A stretch of DNA of 64,000 nucleotides from Azospirillum brasilense (GTDB lineage Bacteria; Pseudomonadota; Alphaproteobacteria; Azospirillales; Azospirillaceae), in contig NZ_CP059449.1 in NCBI RefSeq assembly GCF_022023855.1, positions 1,226,501-1,290,500 on the forward strand, read 5' to 3'. Positions 21,251 to 31,420 of this stretch are shown piece after piece (the first letter of the stretch is position 1; each line of letters begins with the position of its first letter). The notes beneath the pieces were generated by a model. It was not told the DNA's origin, searched no databases, and saw nothing but the letters and a program-made list of their open reading frames with translations. The position numbers were made by a program, and so were the translations under genes.

Positions 21251-24208
21251 TTACGCCGCTCCGGCGTTGGCCATCATCTTGCGCAGGTCGTTGGGGAAGA
21301 CCGGCTTGTGCAGGATGCTGAAGCCGTTGCGGCGGGCCTCGTCCAGCCGTTCCGGGGCGGTGTCGCCGGTCAGGATGATGCCCGGCACGTCCTTGCCGAC
21401 CAGACCCTGCACCGCGGCCAGCGCTTCCGGACCGGTCCGCCCCTGCTGGAGTTGATAGTCGGCCAGCACGATCTGCGGACGGCGCCCGTCGGCGCGCAAC
21501 CGTTCCAGCGCTTGATCGCCCGACCGCGCGGTCAGCACGCTGTAGCCCCAGCCCTCCAGCATCGCCTTCAGGCCGAGCAGGATGATCGCCTCGTCGTCGA
21601 TGACCAGCACCATGCCCTTGGTCGCGCAGTCGTTGGCGGCCTGCCGGAAGAGGTCCATGGCGGGCGGCGGGACGGCGGCGCGGGGCCTCTCCACGACGAC
21701 GCGCGGCATCTCCACCGAGAAGACGGAGCCGATCCCCTCCTTCGAGCGCACGCGCACGCGGTGGTCGAGCAGCTTCGACAGGCGCTTGACGATGGCGAGG
21801 CCGAGGCCCAGCCCGCGGTCGCCGCTGCCCTGGATCTGGGTGAACTCCTCGAAGATGTCCTCCAGCCGGTCGGCGGGAATGCCGACGCCGCTGTCCCACA
21901 CCTCGACGCGCAGCCGGTCGGGGCCGCTGCGGCGGCAGCCGATCAGGATGCGGCCCTGGCGGGTGTAACGCAGCGCGTTCTCGATCAGGTTGCGCAGGAT
22001 GCGCTCCAGATGCGACGGGTCGGTGCGCACCCAGGCCCGCGTCGGGACGGCGCGCAGCTCCAGCCCCTTCTGGGCGGCGCGCGGCGCGTATTCGGCGACC
22101 AGACGGCCCAGGACCTGACCCAGCCGGACCTCCGCCGGGTTGGCGGCGATCTTGCCGGATTCCAGCCGCGACATGTCGAGCAGGCCGTCCAGCAGGCCCT
22201 TCAGCGTGTCCAGCGCCTGGCGCATGTTGTCGAGCAGCGGCAGGCTGGGGTGGCCCTGCAGGCGGTCGCCCAGCGCGGCGGCGAAGAGGTAGAGCGACTG
22301 CACGGGCTGGCGCAGGTCGTGGCTGGCCACGGCCAGGAACTTCGACTTGCCGGCGGCGGCCTGCTCCGCCTCCTCCCGCGCGCGGCGCAGGTCGGCCTCG
22401 GCCTGCTTGCGGCCGGTCACATCGACGGCGGCGCAGGTGATGCCGGCCAGCGCGCCGTCAGGGCCGCGCAGCGGGTCGATGGTCATGTCGTAGAAATGGT
22501 CCTGCCCGGCGTGGCGGATGCGGACCTCCTCGCGCACGCCCTCGCCGGTGTCCAGCGCGCGGCGCTTGATGGCGGTCAGGGCTTCGGCGTCGGCGGCGTC
22601 CTCGAACACCTCGAAGTCGGTCTTGCCGACGACGCGTTCCGCCGTGTAGCCGAGCGCCGGGTTGTGCATCCAGGTGTAGCGCAGGGCGCAATCCTGGTTG
22701 AACACCACGACGCCGGAGTTGCGCAGCGCCGTGCGGAAGCGCTCGTTGGCGACGCGCAGCGCCTCCTCGGTGGACTTGCGCTCGGTGATGTCGATGCCCG
22801 AGACAATCAGGTGGGTGATCCGCCCCTCGGCTCCGCGCATCGGGGTAACCCGCATCTCCATGATCGCCGCGCGGTCTCCGGCGATGCGCACCGGCGCGTC
22901 GAAGCGCGCGGAGTCGCCGTGGGCGGCGCGCTCCACCGCCGTGCGCAGGCGGTCGCCCGCGGCCCCGGCGAAGGCGCGCCCGCAGGCCTCGTGGAAGGGG
23001 TGGCCGACGATCTGCTCGACCGGCAGGCCGGACGCCTGGACGGCGGTCTGGTTGACCTGAAGCACGTCGCCCGTCGGGCTCAGCACTCCGACGAAGGTCG
23101 GCAGGGCGTCCAGGACGGCGCGCAGATGCTCCTCCGAACCGCGCAGCGCGCGCTCGCGGGCCTCCAGCGTCTCGGCCATGGCGTCGAAGGCGCGGCCGAG
23201 CTGGCCGATCTCCGACTTGCGGTCCACCAGACCGGCCCGCGCGCTGGAGTTGCCGGCGCTCCACCCCTGGGTGGCGCGGATCAGCGCCTCGACCGGGCGG
23301 CGGATGAACAGGGTGCCGCCGATCCAGGCGGCCAGGATGGCGACCAGCAGCCCGGTCAGCGTCATCAGCAGGCCCTGGCGGGTGGCACGGTCGATGGTGC
23401 CGGCCACGGCGGTGTGGTCGAGTCCGACGCTGATGAACAGGTCGCGCGTGCCCTGGCGGGACGGCGAATAGGCGAGCACCCGCGCCACCCCGTCCATTCC
23501 CGGCAGGGTGATGACGCCGCCGCGCGGTTCGCCCAGCAGATTCATATAGGGCTGCGGCACGCGCTCGCCGCGCTGGGCGATGCCGTTGGGCAGCTTGACC
23601 AGGATGGTGCCGTTGCGGTCGGTGACCAGCAGGCTGGCGTTCTCGGGCAGGGGGCGCGCCGCGAAGTTGGTGGCCAGCCAGGGCAGGTCGAGGCCGAGCG
23701 TCACTACCCCGGCGACCGTGCCGGCCTCGTCGCGGAAGGGAACGGCGAAGGGCAGCATGGCGGTGCCGGGCTCCGCCGCCGGGCCGGGAGTCGTCCATTC
23801 GCCGACGACGAAGCGGCCTTCCTCCAACGCGCGGCGGACGTAGGGAAGGTCGACGGCGGCGGGGGCGCTGCTGGGGATGGCGCTGCACAGAACGGCGCCG
23901 TCGCGGTCCAGGACGGTCAGGTTGCGGTATTCGGGGGCGCGTTGGGCCAACCGGATCAGATGGGCCTGGCATTGGGCATAGTCGCCGGACCGCAGAGCGG
24001 CCGATTCCGCGATGGAGGTGACCATCAGTCGCGCGCCGTCGACGATCCGCGCCTGCTCTCCCTCGACCAGATGCAGCAGCCGTTGGGCCTGGGCCGCGAC
24101 TTCCTCGGCGCGTTCCGCACGGAACTGGAACACGCTGTAGGCCTGGATGCCCAGGGCCGGCAGGACGGCCAGAAGCACCAGGAGGAAAAGGCGGGCCAGC
24201 AAGGTCAT
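21251..24208 (-). CDS. Hybrid sensor histidine kinase (Cache, HAMP, two PAS, HisKA, HATPase, REC)
   Basis: This roughly 985-residue kinase starts best at ATG 24208 (MTLLARLFLLVLLAVLPALG) with GGGAG upstream; ATG 24226 is in frame. A first membrane helix precedes a double-Cache-like periplasmic sensor (about 30-275), then a second helix with TGLLVAILAAWIGGTLF, a HAMP linker, and two PAS domains ending in ITERKSTEEAL and VTGRKQAEADL. The HisKA box is VASHDLRQPVQSLYLFAAAL with H630, followed by LIENALRYT, GVGIPADRLEDIFEEF and GLGLGLAIVKRL. The C-terminal receiver has VLADYQLQQG with D917. The HDLRQP box is typical of hybrid kinases that act on a partner through the terminal receiver. The signal is unknown. 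Confidence 0.92.
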   Translation of the reverse strand: MTLLARLFLLVLLAVLPALGIQAYSVFQFRAERAEEVAAQAQRLLHLVEGEQARIVDGARLMVTSIAESAALRSGDYAQCQAHLIRLAQRAPEYRNLTVLDRDGAVLCSAIPSSAPAAVDLPYVRRALEEGRFVVGEWTTPGPAAEPGTAMLPFAVPFRDEAGTVAGVVTLGLDLPWLATNFAARPLPENASLLVTDRNGTILVKLPNGIAQRGERVPQPYMNLLGEPRGGVITLPGMDGVARVLAYSPSRQGTRDLFISVGLDHTAVAGTIDRATRQGLLMTLTGLLVAILAAWIGGTLFIRRPVEALIRATQGWSAGNSSARAGLVDRKSEIGQLGRAFDAMAETLEARERALRGSEEHLRAVLDALPTFVGVLSPTGDVLQVNQTAVQASGLPVEQIVGHPFHEACGRAFAGAAGDRLRTAVERAAHGDSARFDAPVRIAGDRAAIMEMRVTPMRGAEGRITHLIVSGIDITERKSTEEALRVANERFRTALRNSGVVVFNQDCALRYTWMHNPALGYTAERVVGKTDFEVFEDAADAEALTAIKRRALDTGEGVREEVRIRHAGQDHFYDMTIDPLRGPDGALAGITCAAVDVTGRKQAEADLRRAREEAEQAAAGKSKFLAVASHDLRQPVQSLYLFAAALGDRLQGHPSLPLLDNMRQALDTLKGLLDGLLDMSRLESGKIAANPAEVRLGQVLGRLVAEYAPRAAQKGLELRAVPTRAWVRTDPSHLERILRNLIENALRYTRQGRILIGCRRSGPDRLRVEVWDSGVGIPADRLEDIFEEFTQIQGSGDRGLGLGLAIVKRLSKLLDHRVRVRSKEGIGSVFSVEMPRVVVERPRAAVPPPAMDLFRQAANDCATKGMVLVIDDEAIILLGLKAMLEGWGYSVLTARSGDQALERLRADGRRPQIVLADYQLQQGRTGPEALAAVQGLVGKDVPGIILTGDTAPERLDEARRNGFSILHKPVFPNDLRKMMANAGAA

Positions 24209-24226
24209 CGTGTCACAGGCTCCCAT

Positions 24227-24533: not shown

Positions 24534-25190
24534 TCAGGCCAGCGTGTCCACGCCCTGCGAACCGCGCGGCGCCAGGGATGAAAAAGCCTTCTGCGCGCCG
24601 GACAGATCACCCGACTGAAGCGCGCCGCTCATGCTTTGCAGGGCTGTCTTGAACAGGTCGGCCACCGACGAGGAGGAGGATGACGAGGAGGACGCGTTGT
24701 CGTCCGACGTCTCCTGCAGGAAGGAAAGCAGCGACGAGACGGACTCCTGCGCGGCCGACAGGTCGCCGGATTGCAGAGCCTGCGACAGACTGCCCATGGC
24801 GTCCTTCATCGCGTCCGGCGGCCCATCCGCGCCGCCCGGCGGCGGACCGGGAGGCGGACCGCCAGCACCGCCGGGGCCGCCCTGTCCCTTGGCGCCCTTC
24901 GGACCGTTCGCCTCGAAGGCCTGCTGGACCTGCGAGACGTCTCCGGTCTGCAGCGCGTCGCCCACGGCGGTCAGCATCTTGTTGAGGGGGGAGTTGGCGT
25001 CGGACGCCGAACCGCTCTGGCTTTGCAGTTTGGACAGCGAATCATAAGCGCTCTGGATCGAATCGAGGTCACCGGATTTTACGGCGTCCTTCAACTGATG
25101 CATGCCGTCGCGGATGTCCTTGCCCGGTCCGGCGGCCCGCTGCTGGGCGATGCCGGACATGGCCGATGACGTCACGCTTGAGATGGACAT
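24534..25190 (-). CDS. Protein with four SGDL helical repeats, Gly/Pro hinge and poly-Ser run
   Basis: The 218-residue product starts at ATG 25190 with GGAG six bases upstream. Four copies of a unit with core A(L/V)QSGDLxxAQxAFxSL lie at about residues 33-53, 76-93, 136-154 and 187-206. The second and third are separated by a Gly/Pro-rich hinge (around 100-125), and a run of nine Ser (167-175) precedes the fourth. The repeats look like short helix pairs. The N-terminus MSISSVTSSAMSGIAQQ resembles secreted or surface-appendage proteins lacking a classical signal peptide. Similar SGDL proteins occur in other proteobacteria as uncharacterised genes (recollection, not checked). No function is assigned. 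Confidence 0.75.
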   Translation of the reverse strand: MSISSVTSSAMSGIAQQRAAGPGKDIRDGMHQLKDAVKSGDLDSIQSAYDSLSKLQSQSGSASDANSPLNKMLTAVGDALQTGDVSQVQQAFEANGPKGAKGQGGPGGAGGPPPGPPPGGADGPPDAMKDAMGSLSQALQSGDLSAAQESVSSLLSFLQETSDDNASSSSSSSSSVADLFKTALQSMSGALQSGDLSGAQKAFSSLAPRGSQGVDTLA

Positions 25191-25446
25191 GGCGTTCTCC
25201 TTCGTCCTGTGCCGGACTCCGCCGTGCGGACGGAGTTCGGTCTGGACGGGGCGGGTTGCGGATGCCGGATTGGACGCGCGTCCGCCGCGATTCCTGCGCG
25301 GCGTCCAGGAAATATTTCTCTGCAACTCTTTGGCGAAGCGTTACCTTGGGTGGATGTGCGTGTCTGCCACAACCCATGGTGAATGCGGAAAGCATGCCGC
25401 CGCTGAACCGGATCACCCACTTCCAGAGGAGCAGGGGCGTGCTACA

Positions 25447-27174
25447 GTGCACACCTCGCCGCTCCGGAAGACCCGCTTGCCCTTGAAGTCCCATCATCGT
25501 CCGCTGGTTCTTCTGGTGCTGGCCGCGCTGCTGCCGCTGGTTGTCCTGTCCGCGGTTCTCGGCGGCGCCTGGCTGCGCGGGCAGCAGAGCGCGATGGAAG
25601 CCAACGCCGTCGCCCTTGTGGACCGCCTGTCGGCCCTTGTGGACCGCGAGTTGTCCGCGCAGACGGACGCGCTGAAGGCGGTGGCGGCGTCGCCCCTGCT
25701 GGACGGTCTGGCCGCGGGCCGCGAACTCGACGCCGTGACCTTCTTCGAATACGCCGAGCGGGTGCAGAGCGCGCTTCCCCTGTGGTCGACCATCGTCCTC
25801 AGCGATGTCGAGGGCAACCGGCTGGTCGACGCTCCCTTCCTGGTGGGCGGTGTCCGGGGCAGGGTGCTGGAGATGGACAGCCATCGGCGCGTGGTGGAGA
25901 CGGGCAAGCCGGCGGTCGGTACGATCCTGCGCGGCCCGCGCGGCGGCTACGCCTTCCCCATCCGCGTTCCGGTGACGCGCAACGGCGCGCCGGTCGCCGT
26001 CCTCTCGGCGGTGGTGATGCCGGAGGCATTCCAGAGCCTGCTGTTCGGTAACAGCCTGCCGACGGGCTGGATCGCTGCGGTCATAGACGCTGAAGGGCGT
26101 CTGGTGGCACGGGCCGGCGGCGACGCGGACATGATCGGGCGCCACGCCAGCGAAAACGCGCTCCGCGCCCGCCGCGCCGCCGGCAGCGGCGTCTATGAGG
26201 GAATGAGCCTGGAGGGCGCGCCGACGGTGGTCGCCTTCCGCTCGCTGCCCGACTACGGGTGGTCGGTTCACTTCGCCATCCCCCAGGACGCCTATCGGGC
26301 ACCGGTCTCCAACGCGCTGTGGCTGGCCGGGGCGGGGACGTTGGCCAGCCTGTTGATGGCCGGCGCCTTCCTGTTGCTCCTCGCCCGCGAGTTGCGGCTG
26401 CGCCGCCGCCAGGAGGCGGCGCGGGAGGAAAGTCTGCGGCTGGAGGCCCTGGGCCGCATGACCGGCGGCGTCGCCCATGACATCGCCAATCTGCTGACCG
26501 TGGTGATGAGCGGCATCGCCGCCATCCGCAGCCGTCCCGACGATCCGGAGCGCATCGCCCGCGTGCTGCCCGAGATCGAGGGTGCCGTGGCGCGCGGGCA
26601 GGCGCTGATGCGGCAGATGGCCGCCTTCGGCCGGCGCAGCGTCTATGAGCCGGTGCCCTTCCGCCTTCAGAGCCGCAAGGCGTCTTTGGAGGCCCTGCTG
26701 GCGCGCTCCGCCGGCAGCGCGGTGGGCACCGTCCTGATCGTTCCGGACGACCTCTGGCCGATCATCGCCGATCCGGACGCCATGGAGGTGGCGCTGCTCA
26801 ATCTGGCGGTGAACGCGCGCGACGCCATGCCGGAGGGTGGCGCGCTGACCGTCATGGCGGAAAACCGCGCCCTGTCGGGGCGGCGGAGCGACGACACCGG
26901 CCTGACCGGCGATTTCGTGGCGCTGGCCGTCCGCGACACCGGAACCGGCATCCCGCCGGAGCATCTGCGCCGCATCTTCGAACCCTTCTTCACCACCAAG
27001 CCAGATGGCAAGGGGACCGGGCTGGGGCTCAGCCAGGTCTTCGGCTTCGCCCGGCAGTCGGGCGGGACGGTCACGGTGACCAGCACGGTCGGGGCCGGCA
27101 CCACCGTCACGCTCTATCTGCCGCGGGCGGCGACGGACGACGGTGCCGGCCGACCCGGGCCGCAGCCGGAATAG
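25447..27174 (+). CDS. Cache-domain sensor histidine kinase with AHD-type phosphoacceptor box
   Basis: From GTG 25447 the product has 575 residues; TTG 25477 with GGAAG six bases upstream is a good alternative. A membrane helix (PLVLLVLAALLPLVVLSAVL) leads to a Cache-like periplasmic domain with FPIRVPVTRNG and SLPDYGWSVHFAIP, and a second helix near residue 295. The phosphoacceptor motif is GGVAHDIANLLTVV with H344; most relatives read AHDFNNLL. The ATPase domain has LNLAVNARDAMPEGG, DTGTGIPPEHLRRIFEPFFTTK and GTGLGLSQVFGFARQSGG. There is no receiver domain. It lies 52 bases upstream of the amidoligase gene on the same strand. Confidence 0.88.
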   Translation: MHTSPLRKTRLPLKSHHRPLVLLVLAALLPLVVLSAVLGGAWLRGQQSAMEANAVALVDRLSALVDRELSAQTDALKAVAASPLLDGLAAGRELDAVTFFEYAERVQSALPLWSTIVLSDVEGNRLVDAPFLVGGVRGRVLEMDSHRRVVETGKPAVGTILRGPRGGYAFPIRVPVTRNGAPVAVLSAVVMPEAFQSLLFGNSLPTGWIAAVIDAEGRLVARAGGDADMIGRHASENALRARRAAGSGVYEGMSLEGAPTVVAFRSLPDYGWSVHFAIPQDAYRAPVSNALWLAGAGTLASLLMAGAFLLLLARELRLRRRQEAAREESLRLEALGRMTGGVAHDIANLLTVVMSGIAAIRSRPDDPERIARVLPEIEGAVARGQALMRQMAAFGRRSVYEPVPFRLQSRKASLEALLARSAGSAVGTVLIVPDDLWPIIADPDAMEVALLNLAVNARDAMPEGGALTVMAENRALSGRRSDDTGLTGDFVALAVRDTGTGIPPEHLRRIFEPFFTTKPDGKGTGLGLSQVFGFARQSGGTVTVTSTVGAGTTVTLYLPRAATDDGAGRPGPQPE

Positions 27175-27226: not shown

Positions 27227-28240
27227 ATGGACACCGCATTCCGCACGCCCCCCCATTCCACCACGACGGACGGCGCCCCGCGCACGGTCGGCGTGGAGGT
27301 CGAATTCGCCAACCTTGACGCCCCGTCCGCGGCGGCGGTGGTGCGCGGCCTTTACGGCGGCGCGCTGGAGCCGGAGAGTCCGCACCGCTGCCGGGTGACC
27401 GGCACGCGGCTGGGCGATTTCGCGGTGGAGCTGGACATGCGCTCCGCGCATCCGGGCAAGCCGGAGGCCGGCAATGCGGAAGACGGCGACGCCGGTCCGC
27501 TGGGAAAAGCGGTGGGCAAGGCGGTGGATGGCGTGGTGGAGGCGCTGCGGCCCTGGTGGGGCAACATCGGCAGCCTCGTCATGCCCTTCGAGATCGCCGC
27601 CCCGCCCATTCCCATCGCCCGGCTGGCCGAACTGGAACCGCTGTTCACCGCCCTGAGCGCCCAGGGGGCCGCCGGCACGGACGCCAGCCCGCTGTTCGCC
27701 TTCGGCCTGCACCTGAACCCGCAGGTGGCGCGCACCGACGGCGCGTATGTGCTGGACCATCTGAAGGCCTTTCTGCTGCTGGCCCCCTGGCTGCGCCGCG
27801 AGATCCGCGTGGACCCGACCCGGCGCCTGACCGGTTTCATCGCCGCCTTCCCGACGGACTACGCGGTGAAGGTGGTCGATCCCGCCTACCGTCCCGACCT
27901 CGACGGGCTGATCGGCGACTATCTGGAGGCCAATCCAACCCGCAACCGCGAGCTGGACCTGTTTCCGCTGTTCGCCCATCTCGCCCCGGAGACGATGGCG
28001 GCCAAGCTGAACGACCCGCATGTGCGGCCCCGCCCGACCTTCCATTACCGTCTGCCGAACGCCCGGCTGGGCGACCCGGACTGGAGTCTGGCCCAGGATT
28101 GGAACCGCTGGGTCGCGGTGGAGGACCTGGCGGCGGACCGCGACCGGCTCGACGCTCTGGGGGCTGACTTCCGCGCCTTCGCCGTGCGCAAGGCGCTGGA
28201 CGGCTGGGCCGCCGAGGCGGGCCGGCGGCTTGCCGTCTGA
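27227..28240 (+). CDS. Amidoligase family protein (glutamine-synthetase-like fold)
   Basis: This 337-residue protein belongs to the Amidoligase_2 family, relatives of glutamine synthetase and glutamate-cysteine ligase predicted to form amide bonds between a carboxylate and an amine using ATP. The hallmark N-terminal strand is TVGVEVEFANLD with metal-binding E24 and E26. FAFGLHLNPQ (H162) corresponds to the second metal/ATP strand, and NPTRNRELDLFPLFAHL (about 237-252) is the late Arg-bearing motif. The gene is followed after 10 bases by a class-I amidotransferase gene, a pairing known for this family from comparative genomics (Iyer and Aravind). The acceptor and product are unknown. Confidence 0.88.
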   Translation: MDTAFRTPPHSTTTDGAPRTVGVEVEFANLDAPSAAAVVRGLYGGALEPESPHRCRVTGTRLGDFAVELDMRSAHPGKPEAGNAEDGDAGPLGKAVGKAVDGVVEALRPWWGNIGSLVMPFEIAAPPIPIARLAELEPLFTALSAQGAAGTDASPLFAFGLHLNPQVARTDGAYVLDHLKAFLLLAPWLRREIRVDPTRRLTGFIAAFPTDYAVKVVDPAYRPDLDGLIGDYLEANPTRNRELDLFPLFAHLAPETMAAKLNDPHVRPRPTFHYRLPNARLGDPDWSLAQDWNRWVAVEDLAADRDRLDALGADFRAFAVRKALDGWAAEAGRRLAV

Positions 28241-28250
28241 CGGGGGCGAC

Positions 28251-28964
28251 ATGGCCGCCTTCATCGCAAGGGGACGCCCCCTGATCGGAGTCACCGCGTC
28301 GGTGCACGGCAGCCGCATCGCCTGGTGGGCGAACCGTCTGGCGCTGCGCCGCGCCGGGGCGCGGGCGGTGCGCATCACGGCGCGCGACCCCTTTCCCATC
28401 GAGCGGCTGGACGGCCTGGTGGTCGGCGGCGGCGACGACATCGATGCCGCCCTCTACGGCGAGACCGCCCTCCCGAAGATGCGCATCGATCCGGAGCGCG
28501 ACCGGTTGGAGCTGTGCGCGCTGGACGGCGCGGCGGCGCGGCGGCTTCCCGTGCTGGGCATCTGCCGGGGCTCGCAGATGATCAACGTGCACCGCGGCGG
28601 CTCGCTGCTCACCGACATCCACGAAGTGTACGAGGAGGCGCCGCGCCTGCGCACCGTCCTGCCGCGCAAGCGCATCCGCATCGACCCGCGCAGCCATCTC
28701 TACCGCATCCTGGGCATCGCCGAATGCCGGGTCAACGCCCTGCACCATCAGGCGGTGGACCGGCTGGGCGACGGCCTGCGCGTGGTGGCGCGCGAGACGG
28801 TGGGGATCGTCCAGGGGATTGAGGCGATCCACCACCCCTTCCTGATCGGGGTGCAGTGGCATCCCGAATATCTGGTCGCCGACCAACGCCAGCAGGCGCT
28901 GTTCCGCACCCTGGCCGCCACCGCCGCCGGTGCGGCCAGCCTGGAGGACGCCGCGGCCTTGTGA
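28251..28964 (+). CDS. Class-I glutamine amidotransferase-like hydrolase (peptidase C26 / PuuD-like)
   Basis: The 237-residue protein is related to gamma-glutamyl-gamma-aminobutyrate hydrolase. The nucleophile elbow is LGICRGSQMINV with C105, and the HPE dyad is GVQWHPEYLVADQRQQ with H204 and E206, so the Cys-His-Glu triad is intact. VVGGGDDIDAALYGE and ALHHQAVD match the PuuD branch. It could release amine from a gamma-glutamyl or related amide, or trim the amidoligase product. Tight linkage to the amidoligase gene (10-base gap) argues that they act on the same compound. Confidence 0.88.
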   Translation: MAAFIARGRPLIGVTASVHGSRIAWWANRLALRRAGARAVRITARDPFPIERLDGLVVGGGDDIDAALYGETALPKMRIDPERDRLELCALDGAAARRLPVLGICRGSQMINVHRGGSLLTDIHEVYEEAPRLRTVLPRKRIRIDPRSHLYRILGIAECRVNALHHQAVDRLGDGLRVVARETVGIVQGIEAIHHPFLIGVQWHPEYLVADQRQQALFRTLAATAAGAASLEDAAAL

Positions 28965-29089: not shown

Positions 29090-31420
29090 GTGACGGAGAA
29101 ACAGACGGGCCGGCGGCTTCGGCTGCACACGGTGACGATGATCACCGCGCTGGCCACGGCGTTTCTGATGGCCGGGCTGACGCTCGGGGTGGGCGGCGCC
29201 TTCGTCCGGGTGCTCGACCTCGCGGAGGAGGCGGACCGCGCCATCGTTCCCCAGATCGCCCGCCAGCACCAATACGCCGTCTTCGCCGCCCGCATGGGCC
29301 AGCTCGCCGAGGCCGTCCTGCGCTCCCGCTCGCCGGAGGAGCGTGCCGGCGCTCTGGCCGAGGTGGAGGGCGTGTCGCAACGCTTCGCGGCGGACGCGGC
29401 GGCCCCGGAACTGCTGCAACGGCTCGAGCAGGCCATCCAGGCGGTCCGCCGCACCGCGGAGCGGGCCGACGCCATCGACGCCCTGGCGGCCCGGGCCGTC
29501 GCTCTGCAGCGCAAGGGGGACGAGGCGTTCCTCAGCCTGCTGCGCTCCGGCGCGCCCCTGGCGGTGCAGGAGCCCTACCACCGCGCGCTGGAGGCGCTGG
29601 CCGCCGGCCTGATCGCGACGGACACGGAACAGCTCGCCGGTGAGGTCGCCCGCTTCCACGAGCACGCCGCCGCGGTGGTGAACGCGCTGATCCCGCTGGA
29701 GCCGGGGGACCGGGCGCCGCTGGCCCGCACGGCGCGCGACCTTGACGGGCTGGGCGAGCTGTTCACCCTGCGCCGGACCATCCTGTCGGAGGCGGGGCTG
29801 ATGGGGCTGGAGACGGAAATCGCCCACGGCGTGCTGAACGACCTCAGCGGCAGCCTGACCGACGCCGCCGCGACCAACACGCGGCGCATCGCCGACACCT
29901 TGACCGATCAGGCGCGCAGCGGCCTGTGGATCGTGCTGGTCGGGCTGGGCATCGCCTCGGCGGTGCAGACGGTGCTCTACGTGCTGCTGCGCGTTCATGT
30001 GGTTCGCCCGATCCGCCGCGCCTCGCAGGCGTTGGCCATGGTGCAGAAGGAGCGCCGGACCGTCCGCCTGCCGCCGGCCCTCTTCGCCGAGCTTCAGGCC
30101 ATCTCCACCAGCGTGGAGCGGTTCGGCACGGCGCTGGTGGAAACCCACGCCTATGCCGAGGCGCTGAAGGCGGGGGAGGAGCGGATGCGTGCGATCCTGG
30201 CGGCCTCGCCCTTTCCCATCGTGATCGCGCGGCGGTCGGACGACGCCGTCCTGTTCGCCAACCCGCAGGCCGAGGCGCTGTTCGGGACCGGGGGGCCGCG
30301 GCTGGCGCTGACGCGCAACGCGCGCTTCTTCGTCCGCCCGTCCGACGCCGCCCGACTGTCCCGTCTGGTGGCCGAGCAGGGGGCGGCGAGCGATCTGGAG
30401 ATGGAGATGCGCACCGCCGGGGGGCGGCCCTTCTGGGCGATGATCTCCGCGGTGGAGATCCACGACGTGGACGAGCCGGCCATCCTCATCGCCGTCAACG
30501 ACATCACCCTGCGCAAGCGGTCGGAGGAGGAGACGGAGGCCGCCAAGCAGCGCGCCGAGAGCGCCCTGGCCGACCTGCGCGACACCCAGGCCCACCTGAT
30601 CCAGGCGGAGAAGATGGCCTCGCTCGGCGGGATGGTGGCGGGGGTGGCGCATGAGGTGAACACGCCGGTGGGCATCGCCCTGACCGGCATCACCCACTTG
30701 GCCGACCAGACCCGGAAGGTGGTCCGCGGGGTCGAGGCCAACACGCTGCGCCGCGCCGACTTCACCGGCTACCTGACCACAGCAGGGGAGGCCTGCCGGC
30801 TGATCGAGAGCAACCTGAACCGCGCCGCCGAGCTGATCCAGAGCTTCAAGCAGACCGCCGTGGACCAGACCAGCGAGGAGCGGCGCCGCGTCGATCTGGC
30901 CGCCTACCTGGACGACGTGCTGACCAGCCTACGCCCGCGGCTGAAGCAGACTCCCCACCGCGTGGTGATCGACTGTCCGGCGGGCCTGTGGGTGGACAGC
31001 TATCCCGGCGCTCTGTTCCAGGTCCTGACCAACCTGACCATGAACGCGGTGGTCCACGCCTATCCGGACGGGCGGGCCGGCACGCTGACCGTCGCCGTGA
31101 CCCGCCCCACCCCGCAGGAGGTCGAGCTGCGCTTTTGCGACGACGGTTGCGGCATTCCCGCCGCGCATCTGGGGCGCGTCTTCGACCCCTTCTTCACGAC
31201 GCGGCGTGGCGAGGGGGGAAGCGGGCTCGGCCTGCACATCGTCTACAACATCATGACCACCCGCCTGCGCGGCAGCATCCGGGTGGAAAGCCGGGAGTGC
31301 GGCCAGGAGAGCGCCCAGAAGAGTGGAGGCACCTGCTTCGTCCTGCGCTTCCCCATCGAGGCCCCTCCCGTGGTTGATGCCGGCGAACCGGCTGCGATCA
31401 GGCCGGAGCCCGCAATCTGA
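29090..31420 (+). CDS. Large sensor histidine kinase with PAS domain (HAHEVNTPVG class)
   Basis: The 776-residue kinase starts at GTG 29090 behind GGAGGGG. It has a first membrane helix (about 15-38), a long helical periplasmic sensor of roughly 240 residues, a second helix near 285, a HAMP-like linker, one PAS domain (about 365-485) and a coiled region. The phosphoacceptor box is GMVAGVAHEVNTPVGIALTG with H521, followed by LTNLTMNAVVHAYPDG, DDGCGIPAAHLGRVFDPFFTT and GGSGLGLHIVYNI. This is the kinase class often seen with long helical sensors. No response regulator is adjacent. A terminator follows. Confidence 0.9.
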   Translation: MTEKQTGRRLRLHTVTMITALATAFLMAGLTLGVGGAFVRVLDLAEEADRAIVPQIARQHQYAVFAARMGQLAEAVLRSRSPEERAGALAEVEGVSQRFAADAAAPELLQRLEQAIQAVRRTAERADAIDALAARAVALQRKGDEAFLSLLRSGAPLAVQEPYHRALEALAAGLIATDTEQLAGEVARFHEHAAAVVNALIPLEPGDRAPLARTARDLDGLGELFTLRRTILSEAGLMGLETEIAHGVLNDLSGSLTDAAATNTRRIADTLTDQARSGLWIVLVGLGIASAVQTVLYVLLRVHVVRPIRRASQALAMVQKERRTVRLPPALFAELQAISTSVERFGTALVETHAYAEALKAGEERMRAILAASPFPIVIARRSDDAVLFANPQAEALFGTGGPRLALTRNARFFVRPSDAARLSRLVAEQGAASDLEMEMRTAGGRPFWAMISAVEIHDVDEPAILIAVNDITLRKRSEEETEAAKQRAESALADLRDTQAHLIQAEKMASLGGMVAGVAHEVNTPVGIALTGITHLADQTRKVVRGVEANTLRRADFTGYLTTAGEACRLIESNLNRAAELIQSFKQTAVDQTSEERRRVDLAAYLDDVLTSLRPRLKQTPHRVVIDCPAGLWVDSYPGALFQVLTNLTMNAVVHAYPDGRAGTLTVAVTRPTPQEVELRFCDDGCGIPAAHLGRVFDPFFTTRRGEGGSGLGLHIVYNIMTTRLRGSIRVESRECGQESAQKSGGTCFVLRFPIEAPPVVDAGEPAAIRPEPAI

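Follow-up and report, generated by a model that had tools for sequence, protein, structure and literature searches.

The window analysed here is a stretch of 64,000 nucleotides from a 7.39 Mb Azospirillum-type genome (Azospirillum brasilense, NZ_CP059449.1). It contains two genes on the same strand, separated by 10 bases, which encode an Amidoligase_2 protein and a class-I amidotransferase-fold hydrolase. This two-gene layout had been described in an initial annotation made from the letters of the DNA, and both open reading frames (ORFs) were recovered as follows (window positions):

25102–27174, forward strand: sensor histidine kinase ORF lying upstream, with an unsettled start codon; flanks the system without belonging to it
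27227–28240, forward strand: Amidoligase_2 gene (337 amino acids), predicted ATP-dependent carboxylate-amine ligase of the glutamine-synthetase-like type
27296–27304, forward strand: codons E24-V-E26 of the amidoligase, presumed metal/ATP site; E24 and E26 invariant in 69 rows and also in 64 paired and 16 solo-clade rows
27434–27436, forward strand: codon D70, acidic residue invariant in the 69-row alignment and in the paired and solo-clade rows
27590–27592, forward strand: codon E122, acidic residue invariant in the same alignments as D70
27821–27823, forward strand: codon R199, candidate partner-tied residue
28031–28051, forward strand: codons R269 to R275, RPxxHxR motif
28251–28964, forward strand: class-I amidotransferase-fold hydrolase gene (237 amino acids, Peptidase_C26), partner of the amidoligase
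28563–28565, forward strand: codon C105 of the hydrolase, presumed nucleophile (GICRG)
28860–28868, forward strand: codons H204-P-E206, remainder of the presumed catalytic triad
29090–31420, forward strand: PAS sensor histidine kinase ORF lying downstream; flanks the system without belonging to it

Profile searches bore out both family assignments. The amidoligase matched PF12224 with 171.3 bits (cut-off 22) over positions 2–244 of the 245 in the profile. The hydrolase matched PF07722 (Peptidase_C26) with 149.7 bits (cut-off 20.5; positions 56–219 of 219) and PF00117 (GATase) with 49.3 bits (cut-off 22.8). In an alignment of 69 paired amidoligases, the one in the window included, E24, E26, D70, E122, N164, R199, R239, R269, H273 and R275 were invariant, so that the conserved acidic residues and the late arginine and histidine residues were in place in every row. 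The motif that the annotation had called a late Arg motif corresponds to R269-P-x-x-H273-x-R275. The Cys-His-Glu triad of the hydrolase (C105, H204, E206) was likewise invariant in the 69 partner hydrolases. The active-site residues had thus been numbered correctly and described rightly as intact, and E24 and E26, the loss of which had been named as grounds for giving up the proposal, were present in all aligned rows. In comparisons with eight members of the genus, dN/dS was 0.08–0.33 for the amidoligase and 0.05–0.40 for the hydrolase, indicating that both genes are under purifying selection.

No NCBIfam model matched the amidoligase at E 0.01. In the PDB, its sequence gave only short matches to unrelated proteins, agglutinins among them (best E 0.00088), and none to YbdK, glutamate-cysteine ligase or glutamine synthetase. 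Most of the highest-ranking fold matches to the structure model (mean pLDDT 89.8) were to these three proteins, with YbdK (probability 0.85, E 0.036), glutamine synthetase and plant glutamate-cysteine ligase among the best. The lowest E-value was 0.022, and there was no fold match at E ≤ 0.001. The predicted resemblance to the glutamine-synthetase type is therefore weak, right in kind but not proof.

The structure model of the hydrolase (mean pLDDT 92.0) was closest in Foldseek to Lin1909 (7.9e-22), SpuA (2.8e-21) and PuuD (9.5e-21), while the matches to other glutamine amidotransferases began at 2.3e-13. The same three proteins ranked first in a phmmer search, followed by GMP synthase. In sequence and predicted fold, the hydrolase thus groups with PuuD, SpuA and Lin1909 ahead of the ammonia-supplying subunits. 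In the models this separation is clear by E-values only and less so by TM-scores, since small GMP synthase subunits superpose on the model of the hydrolase at target-normalised TM-scores of 0.70–0.84, like SpuA and PuuD. Several more specific assignments were rejected, the score being far under the cut-off of each NCBIfam model listed for the hydrolase. The hydrolase scored 83.3 bits against the PuuD equivalog model (NF008471; cut-off 266), and the models for GMP synthase, CTP synthase and anthranilate-type glutaminases that were listed were all far under their cut-offs. The Campylobacter gamma-glutamyl-CDP-amidate hydrolase is a class-I enzyme that removes a glutamyl group after a ligase-like step; its model (NF045546) was matched weakly (36.8 bits, cut-off 250), and the hydrolase in the window is no member of that family.

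The genome of the window contains a second gene that is closer to PuuD (G000:C1:918153-918812; loci L220 and L232) and is divergent from a spermidine synthase gene. Its product scored 248 bits against C26 and 216 bits against PuuD, under the cut-off of 266. Since this separate PuuD-like gene lies beside the spermidine synthase gene, the amidoligase-paired hydrolase is not the likely polyamine hydrolase of the cell.

A profile built from the partner hydrolases was used to search 337 genomes of the class, and up to eight candidates were scored in each genome. The subfamily stood apart: 22 genomes had a hydrolase at 238.8 bits or more and the next score was 187.2 bits. The high scores are partly built in, as 20 of the 21 hydrolases from amidoligase genomes are rows of the profile itself; the absence of other hydrolases above 187.2 bits is not a product of profile membership. 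Amidoligase genes were present in 21 of the 22 genomes, and the 22nd (G326) had an ATP-grasp gene. Conversely, the amidoligase genomes of the class that lacked the hydrolase subfamily were G175, with an amidoligase of the solo clade described below, and G199, with a 42.6-bit amidoligase hit.

PF12224 was detected in 51 of 82 genomes of the window's family, in 23 of 337 genomes of the class and in 22 of 349 genomes of the phylum sample. It was also found in 83 of 121 genomes from a family taken as Halomonadaceae on the basis of shared contigs and the tree, a count of the amidoligase profile alone. Of the 51 genomes of the window's family, 40 were checked, and 35 of these had the pair while five had only the solo type. 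Among 87 non-redundant loci of the amidoligase, 69 also carry the hydrolase gene, which in all of them comes next downstream in the same orientation with gaps of −58 to +111 bases; it is missing from the other 18. This set leaves out L126–L132 and L137 as repeat places (L137 = L112) and L094 as a 42.6-bit hit. In a second, overlapping set of named loci, comprising the best 80 of 575 confirmed matches, the hydrolase followed directly in 77. The three misses differed in kind. In L203, the end of the contig cuts off the hydrolase, the start of which is visible. In L183, no hydrolase was found beside the amidoligase or elsewhere in the genome at E 1e-10. In the L198 genome (G732, a metagenome assembly), the genes are unlinked and the hydrolase (329.6 bits) lies on another contig, after a TRAP transporter gene.

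In 27 of the 29 loci L002–L030, the gap was 4–24 bases. In 30 of the 40 other paired loci, five of which are from the window's family, the two ORFs overlapped, with the overlaps being approximate as start codons were chosen by script. In the listed pairs, the amidoligase and the hydrolase were always separate ORFs and never one. Single loci showed further arrangements. The hydrolase gene in L006/L131 (G044) is seemingly split over two reading frames, with the amidoligase intact. In L153 (9962–10585), from a metagenome-assembled genome, the amidoligase ORF is broken and the adjoining hydrolase intact. On plasmid pDSHI02 of Dinoroseobacter shibae (L138, 2207–4351), a dihydroneopterin aldolase gene of the same orientation precedes the pair.

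The pairing is thus conserved across relatives, as the initial annotation had supposed; the absence of conserved pairing, which it had held would count against the proposal, applies only in part, to a clade of unpaired amidoligases. In a tree of 82 chosen amidoligases (including 9 of the 29 from L002–L030 and 18 of the 80 named loci, with 12 redundant or odd rows left out), 16 of the 18 unpaired sequences formed one clade with a support of 100/100, nested among paired sequences. Second copies in Azospirillum belong to this clade, as do copies on plasmids of Microvirga and Rhodovastum. The nesting of the clade in the midpoint-rooted tree points to loss, not gain, of the hydrolase. All 16 sequences have kept E24, E26, D70, E122, R239, R269, H273 and R275. 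Position 199 is an arginine in 64 of 64 paired rows and in only three of the 16 solo-clade rows, and N240 and P270 are relaxed in the solo clade as well. R199 is therefore a candidate, from the alignment, for a residue tied to the hydrolase partner. In A. argentinense, the solo copy (clade loci L115–L125 and L134–L137) precedes a response regulator and a sensor kinase gene and is near an undecaprenyl-diphosphate phosphatase gene; by clustering, the arrangement in L116, L117, L119 and L120 is similar.

The ligase of the pair is occasionally replaced. ATP-grasp–hydrolase pairs were found at five loci (L229, L235, L237, L238 and L239), a count that leaves out the weaker ATP-grasp plasmid hits H14–H19 and the hydrolase hits H27–H32. 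In G326, the hydrolase gene comes directly after an ATP-grasp gene whose product matched PF02655 (28.5 bits) and PF02786 (27.3 bits), both above the cut-offs. In G855, an ATP-grasp protein 46% identical to that of G326 is followed by a hydrolase 51% identical to that of the window over residues 10–218. PF12224 was not found in the whole genomes of G326 and G855 by the same family search that was positive in other genomes. A plasmid of Phenylobacterium zucineum (NC_011143.1) carries two copies of the pair, annotated as ATP-grasp (L238 and L239), each with phosphoglycerate mutase, ZIP transporter and diacylglycerol kinase genes upstream. The same ATP-grasp–hydrolase arrangement is present on a plasmid of Xanthobacter autotrophicus, where the ATP-grasp gene is unannotated (39.3% identity by tblastn) and its ORF extends past the match, in a frame other than that of the hydrolase. 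This form is rare, occurring in one of the 337 class genomes (E 1e-50) and in two of 17 genomes in the order of G326.

A hydrolase tree was constructed from 55 sequences, namely 48 amidoligase partners, five ATP-grasp partners, one unlinked and one PuuD-like hydrolase (L084b was dropped). Four of the ATP-grasp partners grouped together, with one amidoligase partner as their sister, and the fifth was placed elsewhere. A single clade of all five was rejected (p-AU 0.0018), in a test that was set after sight of the first tree and on a group defined by its ligase partner. The PuuD-like row had a long branch and many deep forks were weak, with 18 of 51 inner branches starred. Because the hydrolases of the ATP-grasp pairs do not form one clade in this tree, the ligase half was probably swapped at least twice. 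The pairing itself is of an already known kind; pairs of an amidoligase and an amidotransferase are reportedly described in Iyer 2009. The interchangeable ligase is the new element: we could not find a report of such a swap in print in the literature searched, a search that Iyer 2009 lay outside.

The surroundings of the pair were compared by neighbour clustering, in 60 loci plus the window and in 80 named loci (the best 80 of 575) plus the window. Only the hydrolase recurred at a fixed place across lineages, and the fixed third partner that the annotation had suggested looking for was not found in either set. Clustering of the 60 loci gave two broad clusters, of 24 and 20 loci, with scattered positions. 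Among the 80 named loci and the window, the recurrent neighbours were lineage-bound: a mechanosensitive channel (40 loci), endonuclease V (38), a redoxin (30) and OsmC (22), as identified by scanning one representative of each cluster. In L157–L218, most of them from Halomonadaceae, the pair is preceded by a large MscS-type channel gene in divergent orientation (40 of the 80 named loci), and redoxin or OsmC-like genes follow the pair in many loci. At single plasmid loci, the gene just upstream encodes an aldehyde dehydrogenase, a dihydroneopterin aldolase or an MFS transporter; no pattern is claimed.

In the window, the pair has a sensor kinase on each side, in keeping with the statement that no carrier or transporter gene is directly adjacent. 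The upstream kinase ORF ends at 27174, and its position 52 bases before the amidoligase on the same strand was as described; its Cache match of 25.2 bits is under the Pfam cut-off of 45. With gaps of 52, 10 and 125 bases, the four genes on one strand might be taken for a signalling operon of kinase, amidoligase, hydrolase and kinase, the product of the pair being sensed by the kinases. An upstream kinase homologue was present in six of 81 loci (the window and the best 80 of 575), those with an amidoligase 85–93% identical to that of the window, and a downstream homologue in six of the same 81. Neither kinase is in that place at most of the pairs compared, so that a part for the upstream kinase is not supported, a sensor kinase was rejected as a component of the system, and a four-gene signalling operon is very improbable. 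Among the 60 loci of the other set, L127 and L129 too have an upstream gene of the same orientation that belongs to a broad kinase cluster. A hybrid sensor kinase ORF is found at 21251–24226 of the window (359.8 bits to the NahK/ErcS family model, cut-off 400).

We hypothesize, with about even confidence, that the pair would be a two-enzyme module of an ATP-driven ligase forming a gamma-glutamyl (or similar) amide and a hydrolase of gamma-glutamyl amides, a reading drawn from sequence families and structure models. The two proteins would be made together. The amidoligase would activate a carboxylate with ATP, most likely the gamma-carboxyl group of glutamate, and join it to the amine of a metabolite. 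Cys105 of the hydrolase would then attack the gamma-glutamyl amide and, via a glutamyl-thioester, yield glutamate and the amine. From family membership and co-occurrence we infer this chemistry of the steps, glutamate as the substrate, the order of events and that both enzymes share one gamma-glutamyl compound. By analogy, the logic would resemble that of PuuA/PuuD or EgtA/EgtC, in which a glutamyl cap is added and then removed. No enzyme is encoded between the ligase and the hydrolase, however, and a pure make-and-break pair would therefore be a futile cycle.

The main rival is a two-subunit glutamine-dependent amidotransferase, in which the C26 protein would hydrolyse glutamine and deliver ammonia to the amidoligase for the ATP-dependent amidation of a carboxylate. 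Glutaminase subunits serve synthases of unrelated folds, such as GMP synthase, carbamoyl-phosphate synthase and CTP synthase, which would suit the ligase swap, and the fixed gene order and overlapping ORFs would suit a stoichiometric complex. R199, invariant in the 64 paired rows and variable in the solo clade, behaves as a contact or ammonia-handling residue might; N240 and P270 are also less constrained in that clade. The ORF overlap, the fixed order, R199 and the easy exchange of the ligase would thus be at home in a two-subunit amidotransferase too. In sequence and in fold E-values, however, the hydrolase is nearer to stand-alone gamma-glutamyl-amide hydrolases than to glutaminase subunits; moreover, the two genes are unlinked in one metagenome assembly and are never joined in one ORF in the listed pairs. 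Family and predicted fold hence favour the adding and removing of a glutamyl cap, and we regard the two-subunit enzyme as somewhat unlikely. Less probable still is a role of the hydrolase in proofreading or recycling, in which it would clear glutamyl by-products made by a ligase that acts mainly on another substrate, such as a protein or a cell-envelope peptide. The solo clade indicates that the ligase can work without the hydrolase, and the Halomonadaceae neighbours that were scanned (mechanosensitive channel, redoxin, OsmC-like) suggest no obvious pathway, as this explanation would have it. Yet the co-occurrence of ligase and hydrolase is near complete outside the solo clade, only the hydrolase recurs beside the amidoligase across lineages, and no gene for a peptide or protein substrate stands out.

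The proposed make-and-remove module can be set beside several known systems. PuuA/PuuD and SpuI/SpuA are pathways of gamma-glutamylated polyamines. They likewise combine a glutamine-synthetase-type ligase with a C26 gamma-glutamyl-amide hydrolase, with the same triad and the same predicted hydrolase fold. The pair in the window differs from them in that its ligase is an Amidoligase_2 protein and no enzyme is encoded between the two genes, although at one plasmid locus an aldehyde dehydrogenase gene immediately precedes the pair. In the ergothioneine pathway, the glutamyl group is added by EgtA, a glutamine-synthetase-type ligase, and removed by EgtC, an amidotransferase-fold hydrolase. The on/off logic is alike, but EgtC is a class II enzyme, whereas the hydrolase of the window belongs to class I.

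The system takes its simplest form in this pair, which consists of two genes without a constant third partner. Many bacteria keep the ligase and the hydrolase side by side, which makes the pair well suited to the search for a new small molecule. The exchange of the ligase is a lead that both ligases may do the same chemistry for the same hydrolase. A broader reading, which we offer only tentatively and consider possible, is a general amide-forming machine of two parts, one of them a dedicated C26 subfamily that would work with interchangeable ATP-dependent ligases of unrelated folds (Amidoligase_2 or ATP-grasp). The ligase would have been exchanged at least two times, and the amide metabolite would be common to Halomonadaceae and Azospirillum.

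The initial annotation had also named an assigned function for close homologues as grounds for giving up the proposal; in the portions of the papers that were accessible, no function for close homologues and no characterised Amidoligase_2 member was found. The accessible portions of six papers (PMC12239564, PMC12096838, PMC3765264, PMC12419801, PMC8939145 and PMC7824862) give no function for Amidoligase_2, most of them only citing Iyer 2009. Phages offer a partial likeness, in that genes for an Amidoligase_2 and an amidotransferase occur together in one stretch or one genome. As far as the accessible text goes, phage UFV-P2 has, besides its Amidoligase_2, genes for a class-II amidotransferase, an ATP-grasp enzyme and a cyclotransferase-like protein (PMC3890496), and OM43 phages carry PF12224 and PF13522, for which roles are suggested but left open (PMC10580990). 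In both cases, the amidotransferase, as described there, is of class II (PF13522) and not of class I as in the window. The planctomycete Phage-ZRK32 is listed with an amidoligase, a glutamine amidotransferase, a glutathione synthase and a gamma-glutamylcyclotransferase, and the class of the amidotransferase is not stated in the accessible part of the paper (PMC10945688). A tblastn search with the amidoligase of the window retrieved no phage relatives at E 0.01. In the UFV-P2 stretch (L233; JX863101.2, 6000–15000), genes for a COOH-NH2 ligase, an amidoligase, a class-II amidotransferase, an ATP-grasp protein and a cyclotransferase-like protein were found, so that both types of ligase occur together.
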